From a virus: 23,806 nt of DNA. Position numbers and translations under genes: made by a program. This document shows positions 2,192-23,806 of the stretch, piece by piece (position 1 is the stretch's first letter; every line of letters begins with the position of its first letter). The stretch covers positions 1 to 23,806 of the IMG/VR virus record IMGVR_UViG_3300028710_000003, one strand, 5' to 3'. The notes under the pieces are model-generated. The model was not told the origin of the DNA and made no database searches. It saw nothing but the letters and a program-made list of their open reading frames with translations.

Positions 2192-2201
2192 GGGAGCGGG
2201 C

Positions 2202-2663: not shown

Positions 2664-2698
2664 CCCTGCGAGCAGGCTAGCCGGAGGGCGGGCGGTCG

Positions 2699-3862: not shown

Positions 3863-3889
3863 ATCGACAACAGGAAGTGAGATCAGGTC

Positions 3890-4555: not shown

Positions 4556-4579
4556 CCGTCCACTCGACCAGGAGATCAG

Positions 4580-5605: not shown

Positions 5606-5617
5606 GTCGGGGGTGTC

Positions 5618-10264: not shown

Positions 10265-10265
10265 G

Positions 10266-11650: not shown

Positions 11651-11660
11651 GAGGGCCCGG

Positions 11661-12320: not shown

Positions 12321-12330
12321 GAGCCCCGTC

Positions 12331-12615
12331 TTGCCTCCGTCTCCGCAGGTCGTTGTACAACGCACCACCTCGCTGCAATACGACGGCACCAACGCCACCG
12401 CCATCGTTGACCTGCTGACCGATCAATTCCCCCTCACCCCGAACAGTTACTCGGTCGGCGACGAAACCGATGGTGTGCTCACCGTCATCACCACCGACCG
12501 GGACCTGTGGGCCGACATCGTCGTCAACGAAGGCGATCATGTGGTCGTGAGCTGGAACGGGTTCCAGGTGACCTCCGACGAGGTGTTCACCGGCCGGTTT
12601 GTGCTGCTGCCGTGA
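12331..12615 (+). CDS. Small minor tail protein, unknown
   Basis: The start is a TTG at 12331 with TAGGAG seven bases upstream; 94 residues. No in-frame ATG or GTG gives a better start because the sequence TTSLQYDGTNATAIVDLL is needed for a sensible fold. The protein alternates helices and strands: VVVQRTTSLQYDGTN, AIVDLLTDQFPL, YSVGDETDGVLTVIT, GDHVVVSWNGFQVTSDEVF. The last segment resembles the small beta domain that sits beside fibres in actinophage genomes. It overlaps the following gene by GTGA, which points to coupled synthesis with the putative glycan enzyme. No catalytic motif is visible. Confidence 0.6.
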   Translation: MPPSPQVVVQRTTSLQYDGTNATAIVDLLTDQFPLTPNSYSVGDETDGVLTVITTDRDLWADIVVNEGDHVVVSWNGFQVTSDEVFTGRFVLLP

Positions 12616-13841
12616 CCCTCATCCCGTACGTCGAGATGATCGGGCAGGTCCGCAACAGCCGGTACGTCGACACCCGCATGGCGCGGGTCGCGAACAACTC
12701 CATGCGGTGGGGCCTGTCCACCTACGTGGCGCCGACGACGTTCGGGAACGCGGAGCACCCGATCCGCGGGGCGGCGTCGGTGGCAATGCTGGAGGCGGTC
12801 GGCATCCAGACGCTGCTGTACGACCCGGCCCTCGCCGGCTTTCCGAGCTACCTGTCCGCGGTGAACCGGGCCAACTCGCTGCTGATCGCCGTCGACACCG
12901 CGCACCGGCAGTACACGACCGGCGGGTGGGGCGGGCAGTGGCAGTCGGCGTGGTGGGCGACGCTCCTCGGTACCACTGGCTGGATCCAGTGGCGGTACCT
13001 GTCCGTACCCGACCGGGAGCGGCTGCTGCAGGTGGTGGAGTACGAGGCCGATCAGCGGCTCGCGCAGCCACCCCGATACCTGCGTGATGCCGCTGGAACT
13101 GTTCTGACGCCGGGGGACACCGGTGCTGAGGAGAACGCCTGGAACGCCGGCGGGCTGGCGTGCGCGGCGCTGATGATGCCCGGCCACCCGCGCGCCGGCG
13201 ACTGGATGACCGCGGCCGTGCAGCTGGCGGTGGCCGCGTTCTCTCACCCTGACGATGTGAGTTCCGGGCAGGTCGTGAACGGTCGGCCGCTGTCCGAGTG
13301 GCTGGACGGATCGAACGTTGAGCAGAGCTACGACGTGGTCAACCACGGCAAGGTCAACCCCGACTACTCCCAGTCCATCGGCCTGTTCGGGCATACCGCG
13401 ATCCTGTTCGGGCTGGCTGGGAAGCCGGTGCCGGAGGCGTTCGGGTGGAACGCCGACCGGGTGTACGCGCGGCTGACCAGCTACTACACGCCGGGGGAGC
13501 CGCCGCAGCCCGTCGCCTATCCCGACGGACCGGACTGGGGTGTCCGCCGCTCCGTCTCCTGCTGGTGGCCCGACACCTGCGCCCAAGTCCTCGGCTGGGA
13601 CGCGCTCTGCGACCGCCCGGCCGGCTACTGGGCGGATGTCCACCTGGCCGACGCCGACATTCAGCAGGCCCGGTACACCGACGGGCACCTGTACGCGCCG
13701 CTCAACACCGCCAACCCGGCGCTGTCGGAGGACTCCTACCCGGCCCGGGAACAGGTCGGCTGCTACCAGCTGGCCGCCGGGCATCTGCTGCGCTGGCTCG
13801 CTGACCACGACCGGCTCTGGACCACCGACGCGCCGTACTGA
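12612..13841 (+). CDS. Putative alpha/alpha-toroid glycan-active tail protein
   Basis: GTG 12612 overlaps the previous stop (GTGA) and gives 409 residues without a signal peptide. The sequence is dominated by helices with many Trp and Tyr: GGWGGQWQSAWWATLL, PDRERLLQVVEYEADQRLA, then GDTGAEENAWNAGGLACAALMMPGHPRAGDW (in pieces), GSNVEQSYDVVNHGKVNPDYSQS, and CWWPDTCAQVLGWDALCD. Repeated helix-loop-helix units with Glu-Glu-Asn, Asn-His-Gly and Tyr clusters resemble the (alpha/alpha)6 toroid of polysaccharide lyases and of some hydrolases. I do not recognise a characterised family. Its position among fibre genes makes a depolymerase attached to the tail the best inference. Five Cys occur in the C-terminal half. 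The alternative is a non-enzymatic fold. Confidence 0.62.
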   Translation: MTLIPYVEMIGQVRNSRYVDTRMARVANNSMRWGLSTYVAPTTFGNAEHPIRGAASVAMLEAVGIQTLLYDPALAGFPSYLSAVNRANSLLIAVDTAHRQYTTGGWGGQWQSAWWATLLGTTGWIQWRYLSVPDRERLLQVVEYEADQRLAQPPRYLRDAAGTVLTPGDTGAEENAWNAGGLACAALMMPGHPRAGDWMTAAVQLAVAAFSHPDDVSSGQVVNGRPLSEWLDGSNVEQSYDVVNHGKVNPDYSQSIGLFGHTAILFGLAGKPVPEAFGWNADRVYARLTSYYTPGEPPQPVAYPDGPDWGVRRSVSCWWPDTCAQVLGWDALCDRPAGYWADVHLADADIQQARYTDGHLYAPLNTANPALSEDSYPAREQVGCYQLAAGHLLRWLADHDRLWTTDAPY

Positions 13842-13865
13842 ACCGCGAGGCAAGGGGGGCGGGGC

Positions 13866-14384
13866 GTGAGCGCTTTTCTGATCGCCTTGACGGTGGCGAT
13901 CCCCGCGTTCCTGGGGCCGTGGATCGCGATCCGCGCGAACGGCCGGGAACGGCGCAAGGACCAAGCGGCGACGTGGGCGCGGGACGACGAGGTAGCCGCG
14001 CAAGCAGCCAAGGCCGCCGAACTGCTCCTCGCGGCCCAGCAGGAGACCATCAAGCGTACGAATGAGGTGGCGAGGCACGTCGCCGCCGCCACGGCGAAGA
14101 CCGACGAGAAACTCGATGCGATCCACACCCTTGTGAACAGCGACATGACGGCCGCCCGGCAGTCGGAGCTGGACCAGACCAGGGTGACGTTGGTGATGCT
14201 CCGCAAGGTTGTCGCGCTCGACCACGCTGCTGGTCGCGCTCCATCCGAGCAGGACGTGGCGACGATCGAAACGACCGAGGCCCGCATCACCGAGCTGCAG
14301 GCGATCCTCATGGACCGGTTGGCGCAGCAGCAGGCGGTGGAGGCCGAGACCCGCGCGGCGAGGCTCAGCACCGGGGAGCAGTGA
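13866..14384 (+). CDS. N-terminally anchored coiled-coil protein of the lysis region
   Basis: GTG 13866 follows AAGGGGGGCGGGGC; 172 residues. One hydrophobic segment at residues 3-24 (AFLIALTVAIPAFLGPWIAI) is followed by an Arg-rich stop (RANGRERRKDQ), so the N-terminus is membrane-inserted with the rest probably cytoplasmic or at the membrane surface. Residues 40-170 are a charged coiled coil with KTDEKLDAIHTLVNSDMTAARQ and ITELQAILMDRLAQQQ. The 'HtLVNSdmTaar' block occurs in a set of actinophage proteins between tail fibre and lysin genes. It may be an accessory holin, a lysis regulator or an assembly factor. It overlaps the lysin gene by GTGA. Confidence 0.62.
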   Translation: MSAFLIALTVAIPAFLGPWIAIRANGRERRKDQAATWARDDEVAAQAAKAAELLLAAQQETIKRTNEVARHVAAATAKTDEKLDAIHTLVNSDMTAARQSELDQTRVTLVMLRKVVALDHAAGRAPSEQDVATIETTEARITELQAILMDRLAQQQAVEAETRAARLSTGEQ

Positions 14385-14839
14385 CCTCTCCCGCCGACCT
14401 CGGCTGGGGTGACCCGCACGTCCTCACCGACGCCGACATGACCGGTGCGCAGCTGTGGCCCGGTCATGTCGTGCGAGTCCGCAACGACGACGTAGCTGTA
14501 GTCGCCGTCGCTCTGGTCCGCCGGTTGCGGACCGCCGGGTGGCAGGGCCCGGATCCGCTGCTGGACGAGTGGGGTTACGCGCGCCGGCTGAAGCGGTCCG
14601 CCGAGGCGAAGTACCGAGCCCAGGGACTCACCGAGGCGCAGTGGCTGCAGCGGGCCGCCCTGTCGGAGTGGTCCGACCACGCGTGGGGCACCGCGATCGA
14701 CCTGGACACCGCAGCGAACCCGATGCTGGCCACCCGGCCAGCCGATCCGCAATCCCGCACCACTCGCCCCGTCGCCGCGTGCCCCGGCATCGCCGCATCC
14801 CTCGGATTGGAATGGGGCGGCGCCTGGACGACGCCGTAG
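14381..14839 (+). CDS. Endolysin peptidase domain (M15/VanY-like), cut short by in-frame TAG
   Basis: GTG 14381 overlaps the previous stop; 152 residues are read before TAG 14837-14839. The zinc peptidase pattern is clear: LSEWSDHAWGTAIDLD, the family's SxHxxGxAxD motif with His100 and Asp107 as two zinc ligands, followed by GLEWGGAW, which usually precedes the third ligand. That ligand is missing in the reading frame before the stop. Directly after the TAG the same frame reads DPQHWQVA, which matches the expected D..H(F/W)(E/Q) end, so His157 would be the third ligand. The frame then continues into the DUF1906 lysin at 14912. Without that histidine the short protein should be inactive. Either the codon is a nonsense mutation, a sequencing error, or is read through. 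Confidence 0.78.
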   Translation: MTSPADLGWGDPHVLTDADMTGAQLWPGHVVRVRNDDVAVVAVALVRRLRTAGWQGPDPLLDEWGYARRLKRSAEAKYRAQGLTEAQWLQRAALSEWSDHAWGTAIDLDTAANPMLATRPADPQSRTTRPVAACPGIAASLGLEWGGAWTTP

Positions 14840-14911
14840 GACCCCCAGCACTGGCAGGTTGCCGTGACCCCGCAGCGACTCGCGCAGATAGCGGCACCAC
14901 TCAGGAGATCC

Positions 14912-15877
14912 ATGGAAGTCCTCGACTACTCATCCGGCTACCCGGCGCCCGCCGCAGTGAAGGCGGCCGGGTACGCCGGCGTGGTCCGCTACACCGGCAC
15001 CCCCGGCCGCGGGAAGAACCTGACCCGCGCCGAAGCGCAAGCCATGACCGCCGCTGGTATCCCCGTCGCGCTCGTCTACGAAGACAGCGCCGGGTGGATG
15101 CGCGGGGGAGCGGCGGCGGGGATCGCTGCCGCTCGCGCCGTGCTGGCCGACGCCGCGAACTGCGGGGTCGGTGTCCGGTGCGTGTACTTCGCCTGTGACG
15201 AGGACGTCACCACGCAGATGGCTGTTGTCCTGGCGTGCCTCGACGGCGCCGCAACAGTCCTCGGCAGGAACCGCACCGGCGTGTACGGGGAAGCCGACGT
15301 CATCGACGCCGCGGTCCCCGGGCACGCCGCGTGGGGCTGGCAGACCCGCGCCTGGTCCGGCGGCCGCGTCTCCGCGAAAGCGCACCTGCTGCAGCAGATC
15401 GGCTACGTCACCGTCGGCGGCATCCAATGCGACCGGAACACCACCCTGAACGACGACTACGGCCAATGGCCGACCATACAGCGGGGAGACATCATGCTCG
15501 ACCCAGACGTGAAAGCCTACTTCGACGCCAAATTCCAGGCCGTCGGCGACGGCCTCGGCATCATCATCTGGGGCGACGAACGCGTCGACACCCCCACCCA
15601 CGGCGACGGGCACCCAGACAACATTCAGCGAGTCCGCGCAGAGGAGAAAGCCGACGCCGTCCTCGACGCGACCCGCGACGCGGCGGACGCCGCCCGGGAC
15701 GTGTCGCTCCTCGCGCAGATCGCCGCGGTGAACGCCCGCCTCGACACCCTCCAGACCGGCGGCGGGGGAACCCCCGTCGACCCGGCGGCGGTCGCGGCCG
15801 CGCTCGACTACGACCGGCTCGCCGCCGCGCTGGCCCCGCAGCTCGCGAACGTCCTCGGTAAGCGGCTGGAGTCCTGA
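14912..15877 (+). CDS. Endolysin module with DUF1906 (Rv2525c-like) glycoside hydrolase-like domain
   Basis: ATG 14912 has AGGAG four bases upstream, so this part can be made alone; it is in the same frame as the upstream peptidase. Of 321 residues, 1-195 match DUF1906: EVLDYSSGYPAPAAVKAAGYAGVVRY, a GRGKNLTRAEAQAMTAAGIPVALVYED strand-helix pattern, YFACDED, and the TRAWSGGRV..AHLLQQIGYVTVGGIQCDRN end. This TIM-barrel-like family is found in mycobacterial Rv2525c and in actinophage lysins and is thought to act on cell wall glycan. Residues about 200-321 are helical with a Gly-rich hinge and AAALDYDRLAAALAPQL, possibly for wall binding or oligomerisation. A 499-codon open stretch from 14381 interrupted only by TAG suggests an ancestral two-domain lysin. 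Confidence 0.78.
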   Translation: MEVLDYSSGYPAPAAVKAAGYAGVVRYTGTPGRGKNLTRAEAQAMTAAGIPVALVYEDSAGWMRGGAAAGIAAARAVLADAANCGVGVRCVYFACDEDVTTQMAVVLACLDGAATVLGRNRTGVYGEADVIDAAVPGHAAWGWQTRAWSGGRVSAKAHLLQQIGYVTVGGIQCDRNTTLNDDYGQWPTIQRGDIMLDPDVKAYFDAKFQAVGDGLGIIIWGDERVDTPTHGDGHPDNIQRVRAEEKADAVLDATRDAADAARDVSLLAQIAAVNARLDTLQTGGGGTPVDPAAVAAALDYDRLAAALAPQLANVLGKRLES

Positions 15878-15948
15878 TGGGCCTGCGCCTGTTCGCCCGC
15901 CGCACCGTATCCACCGATCAACCCCGCACCACCACCCGGAAGGCATGA
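15877..15948 (+). CDS. Possible 23-residue coupled small ORF between lysin and holin
   Basis: ATG 15877 overlaps the lysin stop by one base (TGATG), and its stop TGA 15946-15948 overlaps ATG 15945 (ATGA). The product is MGLRLFARRTVSTDQPRTTTRKA, basic and rich in Arg and Thr, with no membrane segment. Overlap at both ends is the evidence; there is no separate Shine-Dalgarno. It may be real, or merely a translational bridge that brings ribosomes to the holin start. Confidence 0.42.
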   Translation: MGLRLFARRTVSTDQPRTTTRKA

Positions 15949-15950
15949 CC

Positions 15951-16202
15951 ATGGCCTCACCAATCAAAACCAAGGCCACCTACATCCGCGACCTGGTCGA
16001 GCGAGTCGCCTCGACGTTCGTGATCACGTTCCTCGGCACGCTGGTCACCGGCGGCTGGTTCGACATCGCCCACATCCGCGACACCTCCGCGTTGCAGGCC
16101 GCCGGGCTCGCCGCCATCGCCGCAGTCCTGTCGCTGATCAAGGGCCTGGTCGCCAAGTTCGTGGCCAACCGGGACTCCGCGAGCCTCGCGCCCGGTGTCT
16201 GA
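15951..16202 (+). CDS. Holin, r1t-type
   Basis: The chosen start is ATG 15951 because GGAAGG lies seven bases upstream; ATG 15945 is six bases earlier, coupled to the small ORF but too close to that Shine-Dalgarno. The 83-residue protein has two hydrophobic segments, FVITFLGTLVTGGWF and AAGLAAIAAVLSLIKGLVAKFVA, separated by a loop with DIAHIRDTSALQ, and an N-terminal charged helix YIRDLVERVASTF. This matches the r1t holin family, which opens the membrane so that endolysins reach the wall. Its position after the lysin and before a permuted NlpC/P60-like gene completes a lysis module. The two ATG codons might make two forms with opposing effects as in some dual-start holins, but this is only a possibility. 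Confidence 0.82.
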   Translation: MASPIKTKATYIRDLVERVASTFVITFLGTLVTGGWFDIAHIRDTSALQAAGLAAIAAVLSLIKGLVAKFVANRDSASLAPGV

Positions 16203-16707
16203 GCCGCTCGCGCATTCCTCCGCGCCCGGGTCGCCGCTACACGGCGACTTCGGGTTGCAGGCCGGCTCCGGACTGGCCATGTTCCTCGTCCGGGTCGGCA
16301 CCCTGAGCCGGTGGGGTCATGCCTGCATCGCAGTCGGGGACGCGGCCGGCGGGCAGATCCAGATCGTGGAGGCCATGCCCGAGGGTGTCCGGACCCGCAC
16401 CAGCACCGTCGGGTCGTGGGTGTGGTCAAACGTGCCGCTCACCGACGCGCAACGCGACCACATCGCCGGCACCGCGTTCACCGAGGTCGGGAAGCCCTAC
16501 GACTGGCCGAGCATCGCCGGGTTCGTCCTACGGCACTTCGGGATGCACCTACGCGGGAAGCGGTCGAAGGATCACCCGGATGACAGCTTGATCTGTTCGG
16601 AGCTGGCCGCCTGGAGTTATCGGGAGGCTGGCGTCGACCTGTTCCCTGACGTAGCTCCTGGCGATGTGGCTCCTGGCGACTTGGCCGAATACCTCGTCGT
16701 GCACTGA
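16195..16707 (+). CDS. Permuted NlpC/P60-like (YiiX-type) Cys/His protein
   Basis: The start GTG 16195 overlaps the holin gene by eight bases; 170 residues. The arrangement is that of the circularly permuted NlpC/P60 families: His42 in SRWGHACIAVGD comes before Cys134 in DDSLICSELAAWSYREAG. Between them are EAMPEGVRTRT, an Asp-rich loop, and GKPYDWPSIAGFVLRHFG, matching the 'g..YD...i..f.l' block of YiiX/DUF830-type proteins. These enzymes are cysteine hydrolases acting on peptides, amides or lipids; the target here is unknown. The end carries a duplicated VAPGD. It is the last gene before the terminator. It could help lysis or modify an envelope component. Confidence 0.74.
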   Translation: MSEPLAHSSAPGSPLHGDFGLQAGSGLAMFLVRVGTLSRWGHACIAVGDAAGGQIQIVEAMPEGVRTRTSTVGSWVWSNVPLTDAQRDHIAGTAFTEVGKPYDWPSIAGFVLRHFGMHLRGKRSKDHPDDSLICSELAAWSYREAGVDLFPDVAPGDVAPGDLAEYLVVH

Positions 16708-16759
16708 CCCTCTGTCCTGCCCGGTCGGTGCCGTCGGGTGGTCCTGGTCGGGCATGGAA

Positions 16760-16805
16760 GCGCCTCCCTCACTGGCCTACGGGCTGGTGGGGGAGGCGCG
16801 TTTCG
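16760..16805 (+). terminator. Hairpin terminator ending the late operon
   Basis: GCGCCTCCC at 16760-16768 pairs perfectly with GGGAGGCGC at 16791-16799, with partial further pairing in the 22-base inner region. A short GTTTC follows on the plus strand. It lies 52 bases after the last late gene and 22 bases before the convergent minus-strand gene, so it may stop transcription from both sides. Confidence 0.75.
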
Positions 16806-16821
16806 TGCGTTCAGGGGAAGG

Positions 16822-17136
16822 TCAAGACTTCGCGTCTGCGCGGTCCAGTAGCAGCAGAGCCTCGCTGGCGCAGCCACCGCATAGCCATACATGGCCGTCA
16901 CCAGCCCGAGGTGCGGCGAGCGTCTTGACGGCCTCGGGAGTAACCGGACGTTGCATGTCCCAACCCATAACGACGTTGAAACCGCACAACGCAGCAACGG
17001 GGATACCGCCGCCGTACTTGAACCCCTCCGGGCCTACCTCGCGGATGTGCTCTTGACCCATCGGCCGGGCGTGAACCGGCTCGCAGAATGCCAGAACGCG
17101 CTCCGTGGCGATGTCCTTACTCGACCGTCTGATCAC
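16822..17136 (-). CDS. Small Cys/His protein, zinc-ribbon-like, last gene of a leftward operon
   Basis: GTG (complement of 17134-17136) overlaps the stop of the helix-turn-helix gene (GTGA), giving 104 residues; the longer open frame upstream overlaps that gene and is rejected. The sequence has FCEPVHARPM near the start and an ALCGF...HVWLCGGCASEALLLL arrangement at the C-terminus, that is Cys-Gly spaced about 35 residues from His and a CxxC pair. This resembles the small zinc-binding proteins found in actinobacterial phages and mobile elements, in which LCG and a C-terminal CxxC bind one metal. The function is unknown. It ends 22 bases from the late terminator. Confidence 0.6.
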   Translation of the reverse strand: MIRRSSKDIATERVLAFCEPVHARPMGQEHIREVGPEGFKYGGGIPVAALCGFNVVMGWDMQRPVTPEAVKTLAAPRAGDGHVWLCGGCASEALLLLDRADAKS

Positions 17137-17348
17137 AGTGACGCATCCTTCCTCGGTCGCCCGGTACGTCCGGGGCGGTTGGCCTGCCATGCGTCGATGG
17201 TCTCCGGCAGCCATGCGGGGGAGCGGCCGAACGTGGCGTCAGGTTCGGGGAAGTCACCCCGACCGCGATAGCGGGTGATGCTGTCGGGGTGGACGCCGAG
17301 CCGGGCAGCAACAGCCGCCCGGTCCAGCAGGGTTTCGGCATCCGTCAT
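17133..17348 (-). CDS. Helix-turn-helix protein, AlpA/excisionase-like
   Basis: The 71-residue protein starts at ATG complementary to 17346-17348 and overlaps the upstream gene by four bases (ATGA). It has the MerR/AlpA-type winged helix-turn-helix pattern: LLDRAAVAARLGVHPDSITRYRGRGDFPEPD, then GRSPAWLPETIDAWQANRPG, where the first helix pair binds DNA, the RGDFPEP turn forms the wing, and the W..IdaW helix closes the fold, followed by a basic RPGRTGRPRKD tail. Proteins like this serve as excisionases or as transcription regulators of prophages. An integrase is encoded 1.2 kb away, so an excisionase role is plausible but not shown. Confidence 0.82.
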   Translation of the reverse strand: MTDAETLLDRAAVAARLGVHPDSITRYRGRGDFPEPDATFGRSPAWLPETIDAWQANRPGRTGRPRKDASL

Positions 17349-17806
17349 GGTGTCGTGCTCGCCAGTTGGTCACGCAGCAGCCCGACCTCGACATCGGTGA
17401 TCCAGCGGTCGCCGGTCGCGGTGTCGTCGGTGACGGACAGGCCTGCGTCGATCAGGCTGTCAATGACAGCAACCACGTCCGCACGGTCATTGCCCTCGCC
17501 AACCAGCAGATTCACGACACTCTCGGCGGGGTGGACGGCAGTGTAGCCGCGCACCGCGTTGCGGAAGTCATTCAGACGAGCGAGGTTGGCCGTGACCAGA
17601 GCCGCGTTGACGTACTCGGCGCTGGGGCGTACCGACTGGGCGTACGAGGTCATGTTGGCGATGGCCGCGAATACCCGGTCGCCTTCGGCAGCGTCGGGCC
17701 TCCAGTTCGGCTGGTCCATCGTGGCGGCGAACTGCCCGTCGATGGTGAGGCGGGCCGTCGTGTTGTCGATGTCGATGGTGATGCCGTCCTGGCTGATCGT
17801 GGTCAC
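17345..17806 (-). CDS. Unknown 153-residue protein, first gene of the operon
   Basis: The start is GTG at complement 17804-17806 behind CCAGGGGG; a promoter lies about 37-65 bases upstream. The protein begins with a beta hairpin-like segment (TTISQDGITIDIDNTTARLTIDGQFAATMD), followed by helices GDRVFAAIANMTSYAQSV, NAALVTANLARLNDFRNAVRGY and a C-terminal domain with DVVAVIDSLIDAGLSVTDDTATGDRWITDVEV that resembles a small winged-helix unit ('lid.Gl......g.rw..t..v'). This could be DNA- or protein-binding. No recognised family. It is cotranscribed with the AlpA-like protein, overlapping it by ATGA, so a regulatory role in lysogeny or excision is possible. Confidence 0.62.
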   Translation of the reverse strand: MTTISQDGITIDIDNTTARLTIDGQFAATMDQPNWRPDAAEGDRVFAAIANMTSYAQSVRPSAEYVNAALVTANLARLNDFRNAVRGYTAVHPAESVVNLLVGEGNDRADVVAVIDSLIDAGLSVTDDTATGDRWITDVEVGLLRDQLASTTP

Positions 17807-17817
17807 TGGAACCCCCT

Positions 17818-17889
17818 GGAAGTTGTCTGTGTCGCACGGATGACTTTACGGGATAGGGCAGGCTGTGTCAACGCACCCGGACAACTTCC
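17818..17889. repeat. 10-bp inverted repeat flanking the promoter, candidate operators
   Basis: GGAAGTTGTC occurs at 17818-17827 and its exact reverse complement GACAACTTCC at 17880-17889. The next bases partly match as well (consensus GGAAGTTGTCyGkGT). The arms lie on either side of the -10 and -35 boxes, with one in the leader and one upstream. Such an arrangement could bind a repressor at both sites. A second imperfect palindrome, TTGCA-N5-TGCAA, lies at 17892-17906. Confidence 0.55.
17843..17871 (-). promoter_or_regulatory. Sigma70-like promoter of the leftward operon
   Basis: On the minus strand TTGACA (complement of 17866-17871) and TAAAGT (complement of 17843-17848) are separated by 17 bases. 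Transcription would start near 17836, about 30 bases before GTG 17806. The -35 box is a perfect consensus and the -10 box is four of six. In GC-rich surroundings this is a strong match. Confidence 0.72.
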
Positions 17890-17891
17890 TA

Positions 17892-17906
17892 TTGCAGATC
17901 GTGCAA
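17892..17906. promoter_or_regulatory. Short palindrome TTGCA-N5-TGCAA, possible operator
   Basis: Two five-base arms separated by five bases lie upstream of the -35 box and just outside the 10-bp inverted repeat. The size fits one helix-turn-helix dimer site. The match is short, and no other copy was seen nearby. Confidence 0.35.
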
Positions 17907-17911
17907 CCCGG

Positions 17912-18214
17912 CTAGGACCGGCCGCGCGGGTGCTTCTCCTGCCACGTCCGGGCCACCGGCCACCCCGCGGCCTCCAACCCATCCACCACGGCGGCCATCT
18001 GCTCGATGCACCACGTCAGGTGGGTGACGACCCTGCCCAGCGCCTCGGCCTGCACAGGCTGCTCGCCGAGGGCATCCCGGTCAGCGGCGAGGGCTTCGGC
18101 GGCCTGGAGGAGTTGCCCGGCCCGGACCCGCAGATCCGCGGTGACGTCCTCGCGGGACGGCGGGATGTCGTCGCGGGCTGGGGTGATCTCCATGCGGCCA
18201 GGGTCGCACGTCAC
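17912..18214 (-). CDS. Small helical protein of unknown function
   Basis: The start chosen is GTG at complement 18212-18214, which overlaps the stop of the upstream membrane protein (GTGA), giving 100 residues; ATG at complement 18191-18193 would give 93. The sequence after a variable start (MEITPARDDIPPSRED) is helical: VTADLRVRAGQLLQAAEALAADRDALG, ALGRVVTHLTWCIEQMAAVVDGLEAAGW, with a basic end. No recognised motif and no membrane segment. The overlap with a small membrane protein suggests a pair acting together, perhaps a cytoplasmic partner. Similar helical proteins are common in actinophage immunity or accessory regions. Confidence 0.55.
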   Translation of the reverse strand: MTCDPGRMEITPARDDIPPSREDVTADLRVRAGQLLQAAEALAADRDALGEQPVQAEALGRVVTHLTWCIEQMAAVVDGLEAAGWPVARTWQEKHPRGRS

Positions 18215-18459
18215 TGCTCCACGCCGTGCCGCTGGCGACGCCACAACCGCAGGTAATCCAGGTACGACATGGCGTACAGCCCGGCCAACGTCAACAGGAC
18301 CATGTCCTGTTTGGTCAGCGCGTACCAGACGAACCCGACCTCCACGAACAGGTTCATCCACCACGCCTCGCGGGGTGGCTGGTGCCGGCGGATCCGGCGC
18401 CGCTGCAGCAGCCACGACACCGCGGCGAGGGCCACCAGCACCGGGCCGCTCACCGGCAT
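18211..18459 (-). CDS. Small membrane protein with two or three transmembrane segments
   Basis: This 82-residue protein starts at ATG complementary to 18457-18459. Hydrophobic segments are residues 5-18 (GPVLVALAAVSWLL), 35-47 (MNLFVEVGFVWYA) and 53-70 (MVLLTLAGLYAMSYLDYL), with a QRRRIRRHQ loop after the first. The last two resemble the short PnuC-like pattern in phage-encoded small membrane proteins ('eva.f.yal...q......la.lY...yl'). It may take part in superinfection immunity or be a transporter fragment, but no function can be assigned. It overlaps the downstream partner by GTGA and lies 121 bases after the integrase stop. Confidence 0.62.
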   Translation of the reverse strand: MPVSGPVLVALAAVSWLLQRRRIRRHQPPREAWWMNLFVEVGFVWYALTKQDMVLLTLAGLYAMSYLDYLRLWRRQRHGVEQ

Positions 18460-18580
18460 AACAGCGGCCGGGCACTGGAAGCGGACAGCGTTGAATAAGC
18501 GTGTGCGGTCAACGGGTGTCAGTCCTTCGTAAGCGTCGTCAGGTACGCCGGTCAGGGCTGGGATACGGCGGAGGTGGAAG
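18460..18580. other. Integrase-adjacent gap, possible attP region
   Basis: The 121 bases between the integrase stop and the next gene hold no clear hairpin, tRNA end or long repeat that I can see. Integrase genes usually lie beside attP, so the site may be here or in the gap to the right of the gene; without a bacterial junction the core cannot be identified. A weak CTGACA/TTATTC pair on the minus strand with 18-base spacing could be a promoter for the gene at 18459. Confidence 0.22.
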
Positions 18581-19741
18581 TCAGTCCTCGAGGTAGTCGG
18601 CCAGCTTGTAGCCGGCGGCGCGCTCGAGCTTGCCGCGCGCCCGGTCGTAGCGGCGGGTGGTCCGCGGGTCCTTGTGTCGGGCCGAGTCCTGCATGTCCCG
18701 CAACGACACCCCGGCGTCCAGGCCGAGAGTCACGAATGCGTGCCGCAGCATGTGCGGGGTCAGCCGCACCGGCAGCCCGGCGCGTTTGCCAACCCGCTCC
18801 ACCGCGAGCTCAGCCTGCCGGTGGTTCAGGGGACGGCCGCCGGGGTTAGCCAGCAGTGGCCCGGTCAGATCCTCGAGGTCGACCCCGGCCGCGGCGGCGC
18901 GCGCCTCGAGCAGCCGGTCGATCGCCGCGATAGTCGGGCGGGGGATCGCCACCTCCTGCGTCTCCCCGCCCTTCCCGGTGATCCGGATGATGCGGTGGCC
19001 GCTCGAGGCGCCCACGTGCTCGACGTCGACCCCGACGGCCTCGAAGGTGCGCAGGCCGCAGTGGACCATCAACGACAGCAGCACCGCCTCGAGCGGGCTA
19101 CCCACGCGGGTGGCCGCATACCAAACCTGCTGCACCTGATCTTTCGTAAGGCCGACTGTGGGGGAGAAGTCCGGATCCACTCGAGGTCGGGTGGCGTGCT
19201 TGACGGGGTTGTGGTCGGCGATGTCTTCGGCCTCGAGGTAGGCGTACAGCGAACTGACCGCAGCCAACCGCCGGGCGACCGTCGTGGGTCGAGCCGGCGC
19301 TACGTCCTCGGTGCCGCGGCGCTGGTGTTCCGACCAGGCATCAACGTGCCGCCGGCGGGCCTCGAGGAGATGGCAGCCCGCGTGCTCGAGCCACGGCAGC
19401 CAACCAACATCGTCAGCGCGTGGCTCGAGCCCCTTGCCGGTGAGGCTGAGTCCGAGGTCGTTGGCGTACGCCTTGCGGGTGTTCGGGGACTGGACGGACA
19501 ACAGCCACGCGAGGATCACGCCGCGCAGGTCGTCGTCGGCGAGCACATCGCGCACGGCCAGTGCTCGAACCGGACCCTCCCCATCCCCAACGTGGATAAC
19601 GTGAATTATGCCCGTGGGTGGGGAGGGGTTCGGGCTCGAGGTGCCCACGGCATGCTCCTGAGAATCCGCATTCCCGGGCCCGATGTAGTGGGGGTCGGAA
19701 GTGGTGCCCGGCCCATCTTGCGGAGTATGTACGTCAGCCAC
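18581..19741 (-). CDS. int: Tyrosine site-specific recombinase (phage integrase)
   Basis: The start is GTG complementary to 19739-19741 with GGAGG four bases before it; 386 residues. The N-terminal 65 residues are a Pro/His/Gly-rich extension that may be an arm-type or disordered segment. Residues about 70-190 are a core-binding domain (RGVILAWLLSVQSPNTRKAYANDL, TTVARRLAAVSSLYAYLE). The catalytic domain shows all expected residues: Arg231 in GLRTFEA, Lys257 in ITGKGGE, His330 and Arg333 in TPHMLRHAF, His356 in SARHKDPRTT, and nucleophile Tyr365 in RRYDRA. It should integrate and excise the phage genome at att sites. Its DNA holds twelve CTCGAG palindromes, none of which I found elsewhere in the window. 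Its start overlaps the zinc-ribbon gene by eight bases. Confidence 0.93.
   Translation of the reverse strand: MADVHTPQDGPGTTSDPHYIGPGNADSQEHAVGTSSPNPSPPTGIIHVIHVGDGEGPVRALAVRDVLADDDLRGVILAWLLSVQSPNTRKAYANDLGLSLTGKGLEPRADDVGWLPWLEHAGCHLLEARRRHVDAWSEHQRRGTEDVAPARPTTVARRLAAVSSLYAYLEAEDIADHNPVKHATRPRVDPDFSPTVGLTKDQVQQVWYAATRVGSPLEAVLLSLMVHCGLRTFEAVGVDVEHVGASSGHRIIRITGKGGETQEVAIPRPTIAAIDRLLEARAAAAGVDLEDLTGPLLANPGGRPLNHRQAELAVERVGKRAGLPVRLTPHMLRHAFVTLGLDAGVSLRDMQDSARHKDPRTTRRYDRARGKLERAAGYKLADYLED
18587..19640. other. Cluster of twelve CTCGAG palindromes within the integrase gene
   Basis: The hexamer begins at 18587, 18623, 18872, 18905, 19002, 19088, 19180, 19232, 19361, 19385, 19424 and 19635. 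Nine copies encode Leu-Glu with the codon pair CTC-GAG; the others encode Ser-Ser, Arg-Pro-Arg or similar in other phases. A manual scan found no copy in the other 22.6 kb. This is a compositional mark, not a known element. Confidence 0.85.
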
Positions 19742-19931
19742 GGTTCCTCCGCTTCGGCAAGCGCATCTCCACGTTGTGGACTCGGCACCACGGCGGTGAC
19801 GCTGTACGGGAAGGCCGCGCAGACCGGACCGCGCAGCGCCGGCGTGGGCAGACGTACCAAACAGACCAAACAGATCCAGACTGGCCGTATGCGCCCTGGA
19901 GCCGGGCGGCTCCCCATCTGCTGTTGACCAT
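19734..19931 (-). CDS. Small zinc-ribbon-like protein between WhiB and integrase
   Basis: ATG complementary to 19929-19931 overlaps the WhiB stop (TGATG), and the stop overlaps the integrase start by eight bases; 65 residues. The central part has VCPRRRC and, 17 residues later, PPWCRVHNVEM, a CxxxxC...CxxH arrangement that fits a small zinc ribbon; the C-terminus is basic (RLPKRRNRG). A 9-bp tandem duplication (ACCAAACAG at 19856-19873, encoding SVW twice) lies before the ribbon. Proteins with a 'PP.C..H...M' end occur next to recombinases in actinobacterial mobile elements. It may bind DNA or the integrase. Its coupling on both sides suggests fixed stoichiometry with WhiB and Int. Confidence 0.68.
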   Translation of the reverse strand: MVNSRWGAARLQGAYGQSGSVWSVWYVCPRRRCAVRSARPSRTASPPWCRVHNVEMRLPKRRNRG

Positions 19932-20227
19932 CACGCCGCCGCCTTCCGGTCGATCTGCCCGGCCTGTGCGGCTTCCTTGCGGGCCTGACTGCGGATCGTC
20001 TCCCACCGCCGTGGGCTTGTACCGGCGCGGATGCCGTACTCGTCCCCGGTGTCAGCGAGAGCGTCCTGCAGGCACTGCGCGGCAACGGGGCACGAGGCGC
20101 AGATCCGGCGGGCCTCCACGGCGAGACCGGCGTCCGGATACCACAGCTCGGGGTCGGTCTGGGCGCACACTGCCATGCGCTGCCAGCCGGGCGCGGGGCG
20201 TTCGAACAACTGGGCAGTGGCGATCAT
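19931..20227 (-). CDS. whiB: WhiB-family iron-sulfur regulator
   Basis: ATG complementary to 20225-20227 overlaps the HIT gene stop (ATGA) and gives 98 residues; the longer open frame starting at 20251 overlaps that gene and is rejected. The four cluster-binding cysteines are Cys21, Cys43, Cys46 and Cys52, arranged C-x21-C-x2-C-x5-C. The turn motif that is usually G(V/I)WGG reads GIRAGTS, so the Trp and one Gly are replaced. The C-terminus is basic (PRRWETIRSQARKEAAQ). WhiB proteins bind a 4Fe-4S cluster and the sigma factor to control transcription; phage WhiB proteins such as that of TM4 can alter host division. The altered turn might change sigma-factor contact. Confidence 0.88.
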   Translation of the reverse strand: MIATAQLFERPAPGWQRMAVCAQTDPELWYPDAGLAVEARRICASCPVAAQCLQDALADTGDEYGIRAGTSPRRWETIRSQARKEAAQAGQIDRKAAA

Positions 20228-20571
20228 GACGCCGCCTTTTGGCCGGTCCACGGCAGCGTCAGTCCGTCATCACGGCGGCGCGGCACGACGTGGACATGCA
20301 GGTGCTTCACGGTCTGCGTGGCCTCCGGGCCGACCGACGTGATGATGTTGCAGGGCATGAGCGCCCGGGCCATCTCCGCGGCGGCGACCATCACGGCGCC
20401 GGTGGTGATCGGGTTCTCGGCGGCATGGTCGACGTGCCGGCGCGGGACGACGAGCACGTGCCCGTCGGTGACGGGGTTCGGCGGCTGGAAGGCGACGGCG
20501 TCGGACCACTGCCGGTCGTAGTCGCCGGCCTTGATGCGGTCGCAGAACGGGCAGGTGGTCGGGGCGGACAT
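20224..20571 (-). CDS. HIT-family nucleotide-binding protein
   Basis: This 115-residue protein starts at ATG complementary to 20569-20571 with AGGGGGAG upstream. It begins with TCPFCDRIKAGDYDRQWSDAVAFQPPNPVTDGHVLVVPRRHV (in pieces), the usual HIT start in which CPFC..I and the strand-Pro-rich turn-HVLVVP.RH can be seen. The signature KHLHVHVVPRRRDD at residues 89-102 carries the His90-x-His92-x-His94 triad; His94 would be the catalytic nucleophile in hydrolase members. HIT proteins hydrolyse or transfer nucleotidyl groups from substrates such as dinucleoside polyphosphates or AMP-lysine. HIT genes are unusual in phages. It is the first gene after a perfect hairpin and is coupled to whiB. Confidence 0.85.
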   Translation of the reverse strand: MSAPTTCPFCDRIKAGDYDRQWSDAVAFQPPNPVTDGHVLVVPRRHVDHAAENPITTGAVMVAAAEMARALMPCNIITSVGPEATQTVKHLHVHVVPRRRDDGLTLPWTGQKAAS

Positions 20572-20599
20572 GCCGCTCCCCCTCTCGATGGGCGGTGGG

Positions 20600-20629
20600 T
20601 GCCGCCGGGTAGTCAGGTACCCGGCGGCA
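20600..20629. terminator. Perfect 12-bp inverted repeat, terminator or attenuator
   Basis: TGCCGCCGGGTA at 20600-20611 and TACCCGGCGGCA at 20618-20629 flank a six-base loop. There is no T-run on either side, so it would be an actinobacterial I-type hairpin terminator or an RNA structure that separates expression of the membrane cassette from HIT-WhiB-Int. The hairpin lies between the stop of the upstream gene and the HIT Shine-Dalgarno. Confidence 0.6.
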
Positions 20630-20637
20630 GGGCAGGG

Positions 20638-21063
20638 CTACTTCAGGCAGGTCGGCGCCGGATCGGTCTGGCTGCTGACGACCTTGCCGCCCGCGGTCAC
20701 GGTGGTCGTCATGGGCTGGCCGGACGGGATCTCGTCGACGACCAGCCAGCCGTACTGGTCCCGGGTGTCGGTGCGCAGTTCGGTGCCGTCGCGGAGGACC
20801 ACGGAGGCGGACACGGGCTGGCCGGTGTAGGACTGGACGTCTGCCTCCACGGCCGCGAAGCCGGGGTGCGCGTCGGAGCAGTACACGCCGATGTACGAGG
20901 ACGCGGGAACGTCCGCGGTCTTGTGCTGGGCCAGGACGTAGCCGACGGTGCCGGTCACGGCGCACATTGCGGCGAAGGTGGCGAGCGCGCGCAGCCGGCT
21001 CTTCGGCTGGCGGCCTTCCGGCTCAGCGGGTGCGGTGGTGGGTCTGTCGAGGATGTTCTTCAC
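20638..21063 (-). CDS. Membrane-anchored exported protein, unknown
   Basis: GTG complementary to 21061-21063 follows GGGGGAGA; 141 residues. Residues 1-22 are cytoplasmic and charged, residues about 25-45 form one membrane anchor (LRALATFAAMCAVTGTVGYVL), and the rest (ASSYIGVYCSDAHPGFAAVEADVQSYTG, DGTELRTDTRDQYGWLVVDEIPSGQ, CLK) lies outside. The exported part is beta-rich, with two cysteines, one near residue 62 and one near the end, that could form a disulfide. No family is recognised. It belongs to a run of envelope-related genes upstream of a hairpin. It could be a superinfection-exclusion or surface protein, but this is speculation. Confidence 0.62.
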   Translation of the reverse strand: MKNILDRPTTAPAEPEGRQPKSRLRALATFAAMCAVTGTVGYVLAQHKTADVPASSYIGVYCSDAHPGFAAVEADVQSYTGQPVSASVVLRDGTELRTDTRDQYGWLVVDEIPSGQPMTTTVTAGGKVVSSQTDPAPTCLK

Positions 21064-21092
21064 GGTGGTCTCCCCCGTAGGTTGGGTTTGGG

Positions 21093-21302
21093 TTATGGAC
21101 GTCTACGTCTGGACGGGCTCGCGGCCCGCAGTTCAGCGGTCGTGCCGCAGGCTTTGCAGAACGTCTCGTGCAGGCCGGCGCCGTGGACGTTGCGGTACTT
21201 GGGTCGCTGGTGCCGGTGGTAGCCGGCTTTCAGGTCGCGGCGGCAGCGGCCCCGGCCGAGGAAGCGGATCCCGGCCAGCCGGACACGCTGGGCCTTCATC
21301 AC
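21093..21302 (-). CDS. Small basic CxxC protein
   Basis: The start may be GTG (complement 21300-21302), overlapping the upstream stop as GTGA, or the ATG three bases later. The 69-residue product is very basic and His-rich: GRGRCRRDLKAGYHRHQRPKYRN, HETFCKACGTTAEL, with a CxxC pair and further Cys and His residues upstream that could bind zinc. The C-terminus is Arg-rich. Small HNH-like or ribbon proteins of phages look similar, but the catalytic pattern of HNH nucleases is absent. Nucleic acid binding is plausible. It is the last gene of a coupled run. Confidence 0.55.
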   Translation of the reverse strand: MMKAQRVRLAGIRFLGRGRCRRDLKAGYHRHQRPKYRNVHGAGLHETFCKACGTTAELRAASPSRRRRP

Positions 21303-21655
21303 CGCGTCCCGGTGTGGCGGCTGTGGATGTAGAGCGCGACGGCGAAGATGAGGAGCGCGGTGAAGTAGACGGCGGCGTACCGGGCGAACCGGCGGTCACG
21401 TCCGCGTTGCTTGGCGAGTTCGGCCTGCTTGGCGACGGAGTCCCGGACGCGTGCTTTGCGGACAAGGTGGTGCATCCGCAGCGAGTAGGCGCACTGGTGG
21501 GTGCATACCACCCACTGGCCGCACAGGTCGCACATGTCGACCTCGCTGCTCCGGTTCCCCAGTCGGACGGTGATGCTCATGTTGTGGTGGAGGTGTTCGG
21601 GGCTGGGGTTCCGGGCGCAACTCCGGTGGCCGACCAGGATCTCCGCGCCGGCCAT
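21299..21655 (-). CDS. Zinc-knuckle protein with C-terminal membrane anchor, copy A
   Basis: ATG complementary to 21653-21655 overlaps the upstream stop (TGATG); 118 residues. Residues about 38-55 have CDLCGQWVVCTHQC, a Cys-rich knuckle. A basic helical stretch (RKARVRDSVAKQAELAKQRGRDRRF) is followed by one transmembrane segment, YAAVYFTALLIFAVALYI, and a short SRHTGTR tail. That layout makes it a tail-anchored cytoplasmic protein. The following upstream gene has the same layout (Cys/His segment, basic helix, C-terminal anchor), so the two may be paralogues or form a complex. No function is known. Confidence 0.62.
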   Translation of the reverse strand: MAGAEILVGHRSCARNPSPEHLHHNMSITVRLGNRSSEVDMCDLCGQWVVCTHQCAYSLRMHHLVRKARVRDSVAKQAELAKQRGRDRRFARYAAVYFTALLIFAVALYIHSRHTGTR

Positions 21656-21960
21656 CACCGGCTCCCGAGGTACAGCAGGACAGCGACCACGGCGAGGATC
21701 GTCACGAACGCGAGGCGGGCCTGCCTCTTCCGGCGCTGCGCGACCAAGGCCGCAGCCAGCCGCGTTGCGGCCGCCCTCGCTTGGCTCTCCCGGGCGCGGC
21801 GGTCGGCGCCGGGCGCCGCCGTCTCCTGTAGCTCGAACACGGCCCCGCAGTGCCGGGCGAGGCACCGGTACCGGTCGCCGCCCACGAGCTTCGAGGTCTG
21901 CTCGATCTTGTGATCGTGGTCCAAGCCGTAGCCGTTGACCTGTACGTACTGGACGGGCAT
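21655..21960 (-). CDS. Zinc-knuckle protein with C-terminal membrane anchor, copy B
   Basis: ATG complementary to 21958-21960 has AAGGAG seven bases upstream; 101 residues. The N-terminus has VNGYGLDHDHKIEQTSKLVGGDRYRCLARHCGAVFEL, with DHDH and RCxxxHC as likely metal ligands. A basic Ala/Arg-rich helix (RRARESQARAAATRLAAALVAQRRKRQ) leads to a C-terminal membrane segment, ARLAFVTILAVVAVLLYL, ending GSR. It shares this order with the following gene, which starts in its stop codon. Cytoplasmic placement with the C-terminus in the membrane is inferred. Function is unknown; a sensor or a membrane-bound defence factor is one option. Confidence 0.65.
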   Translation of the reverse strand: MPVQYVQVNGYGLDHDHKIEQTSKLVGGDRYRCLARHCGAVFELQETAAPGADRRARESQARAAATRLAAALVAQRRKRQARLAFVTILAVVAVLLYLGSR

Positions 21961-21974
21961 GTCGATCTCCTTAC

Positions 21975-22586
21975 TCAGTAGCCGATGTAGTCGTCGCCGG
22001 CCTGGACACGGCGAGCGCCGGGGATGGCCTCGATCGACCCGTACCGGCCGATCGCGTAGTGCGTGCAGGCGGCGATGTTGCAGGGCGGGTCGTAGATCCC
22101 CGCCGGGCCGCGCTTGCGGCATCCGGCCGGTGCGTGCGCTGCGTACGTCGGGGCGATGGCCTGCATCAACCCCATCGACGGGGTGTGCAGGTCGGTGTAG
22201 TTGCGGTCCCAGCAGTTGATGGCGTGGACCTTGCCGCCGGACTCGTGGTTGATCGCGATGTGCACGATGCGGCGTTCGGTCGCGGAGTACGGGCGGTGCA
22301 GCAGCACGCCGGCCGCGGTGATCCACCGGTCGATCTGTGCGTCGCTGGCCGGCGTCTCGTCGTTGGGGTGGCACACCCCCGGTGCGTACTTACCGCCCTT
22401 CGTGCTGCCGCTGGGCAGCGACGGGAGCCGGTCCTGGATGACCTGCGGTACCCGTACGCCGTGGCCGGTGCCCGACTTGCCTAGGTGCCCGGCGAGCTGC
22501 GGCATCGCGGCCGGGCCGCCAATGGCCAACACCGCCGCCAGTGCGATCCACGGCTTACTCGGGATCCACCCGCCACGACGCGCCAT
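21975..22586 (-). CDS. Exported lytic transglycosylase (SLT-type)
   Basis: ATG complementary to 22584-22586 overlaps the upstream stop (TGATG); 203 residues. A signal peptide or anchor is at residues 11-32 (KPWIALAAVLAIGGPAAMPQLA). The catalytic domain has HESGG with Glu115, SMGLMQAIAPTYAAHAP, then IYDPPCNIAACTHYAIGRYGSIEAIPG. The end pattern resembles that of the tape measure's SLT domain (NPLANVFAGLNYGIRRYGS), so both belong to one fold group. It would cleave peptidoglycan glycan strands outside the membrane. It lies in a leftward cassette with membrane proteins, away from the lysis genes, so the role is probably not host lysis. Its length is small for a full transglycosylase but enough for the domain. 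Confidence 0.8.
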   Translation of the reverse strand: MARRGGWIPSKPWIALAAVLAIGGPAAMPQLAGHLGKSGTGHGVRVPQVIQDRLPSLPSGSTKGGKYAPGVCHPNDETPASDAQIDRWITAAGVLLHRPYSATERRIVHIAINHESGGKVHAINCWDRNYTDLHTPSMGLMQAIAPTYAAHAPAGCRKRGPAGIYDPPCNIAACTHYAIGRYGSIEAIPGARRVQAGDDYIGY

Positions 22587-23062
22587 CAGGACCCCTTGGC
22601 CAGCGGGCACGCCCGGCACCAGAACGCGTACACCGCGACCAGCACCATCACAACCAGTGCCAGCGTCGTACCGGCCGAGTCGACCACCACCATCGCGGTC
22701 GGGTTACGGCGAGGCACGAACGCCATCACCGCGGCGATGCCGTGGACGGCGAGGAGCGCGAGGTACATGACCGCCCGCGCACCACGCGACACCGCGCGTC
22801 GCTCCGGCGAGTAGCCGGGCAGCAGCGCCCACAGCGCGACCGTCATCACGAACGCGGCGGCGGCGTACGACGGATTCCCGTCGGGTGCCCCGTTGACGAT
22901 GCCGGTACGGACAGCCCCGTAATCCGCGAGGGCCAGCAGCGCGAGGCCACCCATGATGGTGAGCCGGGGCTGGTCGAACATCCCCGCCTTCTCGGCGACC
23001 GTAGGCACGGGCCGGGCTGGCAGCGGAGCCTTCGCCGCGACCCGCTCGCTGACCGAGGGCAT
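22586..23062 (-). CDS. Membrane protein with four transmembrane segments
   Basis: ATG complementary to 23060-23062 overlaps the stop of the 33-residue gene upstream (TGATG), giving 158 residues; a longer frame to 23170 is rejected because of that gene. After a Pro/Ala-rich N-terminus, hydrophobic segments are LTIMGGLALLALADYGAV, YAAAAFVMTVALWALL, AVMYLALLAVHGIAAVMAFV and TTLALVVMVLVAVYAFW, with CRACPLAKGS at the end. No known family is recognised. It stands directly before the exported transglycosylase, so the two could work together, for example to place the enzyme or to move a substrate. Confidence 0.65.
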   Translation of the reverse strand: MPSVSERVAAKAPLPARPVPTVAEKAGMFDQPRLTIMGGLALLALADYGAVRTGIVNGAPDGNPSYAAAAFVMTVALWALLPGYSPERRAVSRGARAVMYLALLAVHGIAAVMAFVPRRNPTAMVVVDSAGTTLALVVMVLVAVYAFWCRACPLAKGS

Positions 23063-23163
23063 CAGCGCCTCGCCGCGAAGCCGGCCAGCAGGCCGAGCAC
23101 GATCACGGCTACCGCGATCAGCGCGTGCGTCCCGGCGGCGGCTGCCTGGACGGCCGCCGTCAC
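23062..23163 (-). CDS. 33-residue single-span membrane protein
   Basis: GTG complementary to 23161-23163 overlaps the upstream stop (GTGA), and its stop overlaps the next start (TGATG). The product has a single hydrophobic segment, HALIAVAVIVLGLLAGF, followed by AARR. No Shine-Dalgarno is evident, so translation would be coupled. Overlaps at both ends and a clean membrane segment support the call despite the short length. Confidence 0.55.
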   Translation of the reverse strand: MTAAVQAAAAGTHALIAVAVIVLGLLAGFAARR

Positions 23164-23333
23164 CGGACACTCCGCTTCGCGTCGCGCGACACCAGCGCAG
23201 CGAGTACGCCGACGATGATCGCAGCGACCCCCGCGACCGCGAGGCCCTGAGTGCCAGGCTTCTGGTCGAGGCCGTAGCCGACGAGCAACGCCGACCCTCC
23301 GACGATGCCGAGAGCGGCCAGGATTTTGTACAC
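23160..23333 (-). CDS. 57-residue two-span membrane protein
   Basis: GTG complementary to 23331-23333 follows GAAGGGG with six bases between. The product has two hydrophobic segments, YKILAALGIVGGSALLVGY and GLAVAGVAAIIVGVLAALV, separated by a GLDQKPGTQ turn, and ends with the basic SRDAKRSVR. The helical hairpin with a short polar turn resembles holins or small membrane subunits; no family can be named. It opens the coupled membrane cassette. Confidence 0.66.
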   Translation of the reverse strand: MYKILAALGIVGGSALLVGYGLDQKPGTQGLAVAGVAAIIVGVLAALVSRDAKRSVR

Positions 23334-23370
23334 AGCTATCCCCTTCGATCCATTCAGTGGGAGTGGTGGT

Positions 23371-23386
23371 GCCGCTATTCAGCGGC
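23371..23386. terminator. Short hairpin after the right-edge gene
   Basis: GCCGCT at 23371-23376 and AGCGGC at 23381-23386 flank a four-base loop, two bases downstream of the stop codon of the minus-strand gene that ends at 23389. No T-run follows. It may weakly terminate or protect the mRNA end. Confidence 0.35.
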
Positions 23387-23388
23387 GA

Positions 23389-23805
23389 TTAGCCCTGCGC
23401 CCATGCTGGGCAAGGGCGGAATACCAGCGAACTGCCACGTGCGAAATGCCAGAGCGTTCCGTTGGAGTCGAAGTGTGCGATGTACTTGATGTTGTCCGCA
23501 CCAGTGAATGCGACTCCGGACTGTTGCACGTCCTCGTGTTCGCGGTGCTCACCCCACCGGTACTTCTCGTACACCGGGGTCACGGTGAACACGGTGGTGT
23601 CGGTAAAGTCAGCCAAGTCAGGGGGACCTTCGGCGACCAGGAGCCAGGGCACCTCGCACGCCTGCCCGTCTGGCGACTGCTTGAACGGCACATGGCCGCT
23701 GACGTCGACCCAGCCGACCTTGAACCAGTTGTCGAAGTCGCTGATCTCGGCGCACGACTTGCCATGGTCATATCTGGTCGGTGAGCACGATGACGGTGAT
23801 GATGG
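23389..23805 (-). CDS. Probably exported Cys-containing protein, N-terminus outside window
   Basis: The frame is open to the right edge, so the start is missing; 138 residues are visible. It begins with a Ser/Pro-rich stretch (PSSPSSCSPT), as found after lipoprotein or signal sequences, and continues as a beta-rich, Trp- and Phe-rich domain: SCAEISDFDNWFKVGWVDVSG, CEVPWLLVAEGPP, DTTVFTVTPVYEKYRWG, ADNIKYIAHFDSNGTLWHFARG, FRPCPAW. Four cysteines lie in the visible domain and could form disulfides. No family is recognised. An internal GTG at 23691 is not the real start because the conserved-looking sequence continues upstream. Surface location would suit the adjacent membrane cassette. Confidence 0.6.
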   Translation of the reverse strand, partial: PSSPSSCSPTRYDHGKSCAEISDFDNWFKVGWVDVSGHVPFKQSPDGQACEVPWLLVAEGPPDLADFTDTTVFTVTPVYEKYRWGEHREHEDVQQSGVAFTGADNIKYIAHFDSNGTLWHFARGSSLVFRPCPAWAQG

Positions 23806-23806
23806 T

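Follow-up and report, generated by a model that had tools for sequence, protein, structure and literature searches.

Avoidance of orthodox Type II restriction sites is described for prokaryotic viruses, and temperate phages are reported to lose a site completely less often than non-temperate ones (BMC Genomics 2018, PMC6286503). Iterated palindromes are described from cyanobacteria, where, according to a second study, they reach approximately 0.5-2.5 copies per kb and accompany matching methyltransferases (PMC4390886). Concerning the hexamer CTCGAG, no paper on its avoidance or enrichment in phages was found at the level of titles and abstract openings.

Here, we analyse a window of 23,806 bases, i.e., positions 1-23,806 of the virus record IMGVR_UViG_3300028710_000003. 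An exact count yields 12 CTCGAG sites, all of which lie within a single gene, a tyrosine integrase (Table 1). The initial annotation had already claimed 12 sites confined to this gene, and the situation is even clearer than stated there. A second IMG/VR record, IMGVR_UViG_3300042857_000012 (59,211 bases, referred to as G001), contains the entire window at 632-24437 with zero mismatches, and the same 12 sites are the only ones across its full length, so that the remaining 58,050 bases contain none. The mismatch-free recurrence of these 23,806 bases also rules out an assembly error, as far as an error private to the window is concerned. Dinucleotide shuffles of the window contain 9.75 sites on average, and 28 out of 100 reach at least 12. 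By itself, the window total is ordinary; the unusual feature is the contrast between the gene, with a density of 10.3 per kb or about 30 times above composition, and its backbone.

Table 1. Features of the window, with the 12 CTCGAG sites in order of position; residue numbers refer to the integrase, and counts out of 22 to the aligned homologues.
Feature	Position	Strand	Remarks
Phage backbone	1..18580		Tail and other structural genes; CTCGAG-free
Tyrosine recombinase (phage integrase)	18581..19741	-	386 aa, GTG start, all 12 CTCGAG; assigned by Pfam, PHROG and catalytic residues
CTCGAG, frame 0	18587..18592		Leu-Glu 384-385, directly before the stop codon
CTCGAG, frame 0	18623..18628		Leu-Glu 372-373; Leu-Asp there in 16/22 homologues
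CTCGAG, frame 0	18872..18877		Leu-Glu 289-290; insertion missing in 20/22 homologues
CTCGAG, frame 0	18905..18910		Leu-Glu 278-279
CTCGAG, out of frame	19002..19007		Ala-Ser-Ser
CTCGAG, frame 0	19088..19093		Leu-Glu 217-218
CTCGAG, out of frame	19180..19185		Pro-Arg-Val, codons CCT CGA GTG
CTCGAG, frame 0	19232..19237		Leu-Glu 169-170
CTCGAG, frame 0	19361..19366		Leu-Glu 126-127; sole Leu-Glu position common to homologues (4/22)
CTCGAG, frame 0	19385..19390		Leu-Glu 118-119
CTCGAG, frame 0	19424..19429		Leu-Glu 105-106; insertion missing in 22/22 homologues
CTCGAG, out of frame	19635..19640		Thr-Ser-Ser; N-terminal extension
Phage backbone, other flank	19742..23806		CTCGAG-free; includes the WhiB-like gene
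WhiB-like gene	19931..20251	-	Beside the integrase

For the backbone, i.e., the 58,050 bases of G001 outside the integrase, 18.0 CTCGAG sites are expected under an order-2 Markov model, 20.3 under the model of maximal order and 23.4 under order 1. This is the strongest depletion among palindromic hexamers, and no other palindromic hexamer behaves alike; CCCGGG and GTCGAC are found at expectation. Single-mismatch neighbours of CTCGAG occur at 6.4 per kb in the backbone vs 5.2 per kb in the integrase gene. At the coding level, synonymous shuffles were carried out gene by gene for the 49 called backbone genes of G001 (36,327 bp), a part of all its ORFs. The shuffled genes contain 11.6 sites on average and never fewer than 5, vs 0 in the real ones. 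The Leu-Glu pairs of these genes are spelled CTGGAG, CTGGAA, TTGGAG and others, but never CTCGAG (0 out of 38, with 10.0 expected). The Markov deficit, the normal counts of related palindromes and the deficit against synonymous shuffles thus demonstrate that the avoidance is real and acts on the CTCGAG hexamer itself. The suspicion of the initial annotation that the rest of the phage avoids this site is thereby confirmed, with the addition that the avoidance is specific to the exact hexamer. As in restriction-site avoidance, the site is under-represented against Markov models, and the effect is one of site specificity, not of composition; it does not extend over the whole genome, given the 12 sites in the integrase.

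The WhiB-like gene beside the integrase, together with another one in G001, points to an actinobacterial host. XhoI cuts CTCGAG, and an avoidance that is exact to the hexamer is plausibly what an XhoI-type Type II specificity would produce. We therefore consider it quite probable that the loss of CTCGAG from the backbone was driven by restriction. The XhoI endonuclease family (PF04555) was detected in 20 out of 296 Actinomycetota genomes. These 20 carriers are not clearly poor in CTCGAG: the ratio of CTCGAG to GAGCTC, calculated by hand, ranges from approximately 0.24 to 17. Two carriers of an XhoI-family gene, G135 and G085, show 958 CTCGAG to 56 GAGCTC and 3174 to 560, respectively. There, the enzyme is possibly tied to an enrichment in the host rather than to avoidance.

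The pressure on CTCGAG differs between phage lineages. Among the capsid relatives, counted in 49 of the 80 capsid loci plus L054, three phages avoid the site in part, namely G006 (4 sites vs 19-21 expected), G013 (4 vs 17-20) and G007 (6 vs 12-13), while G004, whose capsid is 89% identical, does not: its 35 sites in 64 kb are evenly spread and agree with the expected 27-43. Avoidance thus comes and goes. No stuffed gene was found in any of these four phages, the sites being spread out. A more general trend is visible when integrases are compared with their surroundings. The loci used, each with at least 60% GC, number 41 out of 54 (viral), 78 out of 80 (genomic) and 72 out of 79 (capsid). In the 41 viral homologues the integrase exceeds its locus 2.43-fold in CTCGAG density, vs 1.01-1.71 for four control hexamers; the associated z of 6.6 is too high, since several loci are near-duplicates. 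The ratio is 1.34 for the 78 genomic homologues, which resembles the controls, and 0.39 for capsid genes. The direction is as if integrases generally escaped the avoidance of their phages.

The integrase itself matches PF00589 (E=1.1e-20, 74.5 bits at a cut-off of 27.1) as well as PF02899, and a PHROG integrase profile (E=9e-33). An alignment with five phage integrases shows R231, K257, H330, R333, H356 and Y365 to be invariant in all six, and this R-K-H-R-H-Y set we take to be the catalytic residues of tyrosine integrases. Arthrobacter and Gordonia phages encode homologues, as do chromosomes and plasmids of Actinomycetota such as Pseudonocardia and Actinomycetospora. The nearest are about 42% identical, and no closer relative was found in another genome; single-protein scans for close relatives returned the same virus only from viral_contigs and nothing from genome_contigs. 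The 134 homologous integrases inspected carry 0-5 CTCGAG sites each, with at most 5 among the 54 other viral and at most 3 among the 80 genomic ones. Compared with them, our integrase has an N-terminal extension and two insertions, and each of the three carries CTCGAG. An integrase of the same family is present in IMGVR_UViG_2974531207, a record with a 70% identical capsid. CTCGAG apart, the foreign composition or codon usage of a transferred gene was not observed. The GC content is 69.9% vs 69.7% in the phage, by codon distance the gene takes rank 28 among 37 (a raw value, uncorrected for length), and the leucine codon choice outside Leu-Glu resembles the phage's own. No tRNA or tmRNA genes were found near the integrase in the window or the 59-kb record.

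A second tyrosine integrase of the phage (L007:12382-13374(+), G001 32382-33374, catalytic domain 32862-33314(+)) contains 0 CTCGAG sites, which is little informative as only about 0.35 are expected. Weak FtsK/SpoIIIE-like and replication-initiation-like matches in G001 (L007:6912-8405(-) and L008:7649-8602(+)) are possible traits of a phage-plasmid or an integrative element, and a 387-aa ORF of the window, at 2699-3862(+), carries a DUF4082 domain fused ahead of a phage tail terminator domain. The integrase of Arthrobacter phage AbbyDaisy (L009:852-1784(+)) has an N-terminal part unlike its relatives and matches in two pieces, which suggests a frameshift in the gene or in the record.

For the locus as a whole, we give about an even chance to a backbone purged under an XhoI-type enzyme and an integrase that arrived later, out of a CTCGAG-tolerant background. 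An XhoI-type enzyme in actinobacterial hosts would cut unmodified sites, and the backbone would thereby have lost all of its CTCGAG; loss and specificity are observed, while the enzyme is what we infer from them. The integrase would have entered later, its source being a CTCGAG-tolerant phage, plasmid or chromosome with CTC-GAG as the normal spelling of Leu-Glu. The gene would simply happen to be rich in Leu-Glu and would have brought along its 12 sites, which would have no function of their own. The sites may persist owing to a recent arrival, because the host keeps prophage DNA methylated for much of the time, or because encounters of the phage with the enzyme have ceased. A late arrival would agree with a fully purged backbone next to an unpurged integrase, since full elimination is reported to be the less common outcome in temperate phages (PMC6286503). 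Against an arrival stand the native GC content and codon usage as well as the family member in the record with the 70% identical capsid, due to which the integrase slot may be old. The recent arrival proposed by the initial annotation is plausible, and the native GC content, codon usage and leucine choice, together with the fact that no integrase closer than about 42% was found, keep it short of proof.

What a tolerant background can produce was measured in CTCGAG-rich Actinomycetota. In G250, G155, G196 and G247, Leu-Glu is spelled CTC-GAG at a fraction of 0.71-0.87, and windows of 1161 bases peak at 8-11 sites (77-180 kb sampled). The leucine codon context of the integrase is likewise matched by gene sets such as L372 and L369. 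However, a density of 10 sites or of 9 Leu-Glu pairs per 1161 bp is attained by none of the 149 genes of 900-1500 bp in the four genomes, and in five CTCGAG-rich genomes the P values for three out-of-frame sites are 0.004-0.012. An ordinary tolerant donor is therefore possible as a tail event, one that an eye scan for striking things would favour. No donor genome for the integrase was found.

The excess within the integrase consists of three layers. First, the protein has 9 Leu-Glu pairs vs 2.07 expected from residue shuffles (P=0.0001), and at eight of the nine positions Leu-Glu occurs in none of the 22 homologues that were selected from the loci for this alignment. Second, all nine pairs, making up 9 of the 12 sites, are spelled CTC-GAG, just as the initial annotation had noted, though the gene uses CTG (18) and CTC (17) about equally for leucine. 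CTC stands in 9/9 cases before Glu, in 5/10 before other codons starting with G and in 3/21 before the rest. Third, three sites are out of frame vs 0.23 in shuffles (P=0.0012). In 10,000 synonymous shuffles of the integrase the mean is 3.67 and the maximum 9; 12 sites were never reached. The earlier estimate of 0.4 sites for the gene is fair from composition, but given nine Leu-Glu pairs the proper control is about 3.7. Repeats as the origin of the sites were rejected, there being no common flanks beyond the hexamer, and inspection of the gaps by eye revealed no helical phasing.

These layers bear on the question whether chance and codon context suffice. The integrase could be a Leu-Glu-rich resident whose pairs are spelled CTC-GAG and which the restriction pressure had ceased to affect or had always missed, with nothing foreign or functional about it. 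Its native composition is in agreement with this, the codon shuffles, which keep the nine Leu-Glu pairs, already yield 3.7 sites, and since the reader picked the most striking thing in the sequence, tail events are to be expected. A scan of viral_contigs for other stuffed loci (three sites within about 90 bases, at least 120 stretches) moreover provides a second gene of this kind among the matches listed: L297:4267-5460(-) on another viral contig, DnaN-like by eye, has 18 Leu-Glu (3.8 expected), 17 of them spelled CTCGAG, in a CTCGAG-rich background of 1.84 per kb. Yet chance would have to account for three separate excesses, and across the integrase family only a fraction of 0.49 (viral) or 0.39 (genomic) of Leu-Glu is spelled CTCGAG (loci of at least 60% GC; 41/54 viral and 78/80 genomic). 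We regard this explanation as unlikely. Also among the matches listed is a low-complexity repeat ORF with 14 CTCGAG (L282:2027-3388(-)) in the 65.6-kb record G371, which holds 37 CTCGAG and no GAGCTC.

Selection for the hexamer is the next candidate. A methyltransferase, restriction enzyme or silencing protein might act on the integrase, with the backbone kept free of sites so that the gene alone is marked. The absolute contrast of 12 vs 0 speaks for this, as do an excess both in frame and out of frame, including the CCT CGA codons at Pro-Arg-Val, and Leu-Glu at eight positions where homologues lack it. Owing to the hexamer excess in both kinds of frame and to these homologues, a functional role, which the initial annotation had called less likely, gains a little. 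In G001, a D12-class N6-adenine DNA methyltransferase is encoded (PF02086, E=1.2e-18; L008:6295-7224(+), G001 46295-47224, match 46400-47050), with a WhiB-like and a DUF5131 gene next to it; the D12 family occurs in 2 of the 19 records searched. No C5 methylase (PF00145) was found in the phage. The cyanobacterial iterated palindromes with their matching methyltransferases (PMC4390886) would be a precedent for such a pairing. On the other hand, the sites are not common to homologous integrases, and the 12 sites share no flanking conservation beyond the hexamer, which argues against an operator-like site. The D12 enzyme resembles the Dam family, with a match to the Dam-family model below cut-off, and the known site of that family is GATC. 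No mechanism of this kind is known. We consider selection for the hexamer distinctly doubtful.

The initial annotation had favoured a donor genome with CTCGAG as a genuine, highly iterated palindrome. Such a donor could explain all three layers, as the palindrome would bias protein sequence and codon choice alike, and three viral contigs (G372, G373 and G377) do reach 5.7-6.8 CTCGAG per kb. GAGCTC is abundant in them, too (220, 305 and 67 vs 267, 276 and 135 CTCGAG, respectively), which speaks for a raised composition more than for a raised palindrome. Among 296 Actinomycetota genomes no donor with iterated CTCGAG was found; the maximum is about 2.8 per kb, in a genome where GAGCTC is nearly as frequent, and the 24 genomes with homologous integrases (24 genomic loci searched of 25 submitted, from 80) have about 1.5 at most. 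Triple clusters in the 101 genomes of the order of G053 (at least one in 63, at most 15) reveal no CTCGAG-iterating outlier. Even the cyanobacterial densities cited at the outset (PMC4390886) stay below the 10.3 per kb of our gene. As worded, the claim of a highly repeated CTCGAG in the donor is not supported, and we hold this origin to be improbable. Least of all do we expect, as a very improbable case, that the integrase is the only part of the phage visible to a CTCGAG-specific methyltransferase (the host's or the phage D12 enzyme) or restriction enzyme, which would mark or cut the 12 sites there and so make lysogeny depend on the host's restriction-modification state.

Under a purged backbone with a late integrase, the purged genome and its one saturated gene would form a natural marker of when the gene arrived and which hosts were met. 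If integrases generally escape avoidance, as the 2.43-fold ratio in the 41 viral homologues might indicate, site avoidance could serve to date module exchange in temperate phages. If the sites are selected, they would connect restriction-modification with the choice of lysogeny in a new way.

Compared with known systems, the locus resembles restriction-site avoidance in prokaryotic viruses (PMC6286503) in that one six-base palindrome of the orthodox Type II kind is wholly lost from a dsDNA backbone. It differs in that one gene breaks the avoidance, exceeding its composition estimate about 30-fold, in a phage with two integrase genes. With the cyanobacterial HIP1 (PMC4390886) it shares a palindrome far above expectation; unlike HIP1, the palindrome is confined to one gene of one phage and absent elsewhere instead of being iterated genome-wide, and its local density exceeds that of genomes with iterated palindromes. 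In family, catalytic residues and an identity of about 30-42%, the gene agrees with integrases known from Arthrobacter and Gordonia phages as well as from actinobacterial plasmids and chromosomes (Pseudonocardia and others), from which it is set apart by 12 CTCGAG sites instead of 0-5, an N-terminal extension and two insertions.
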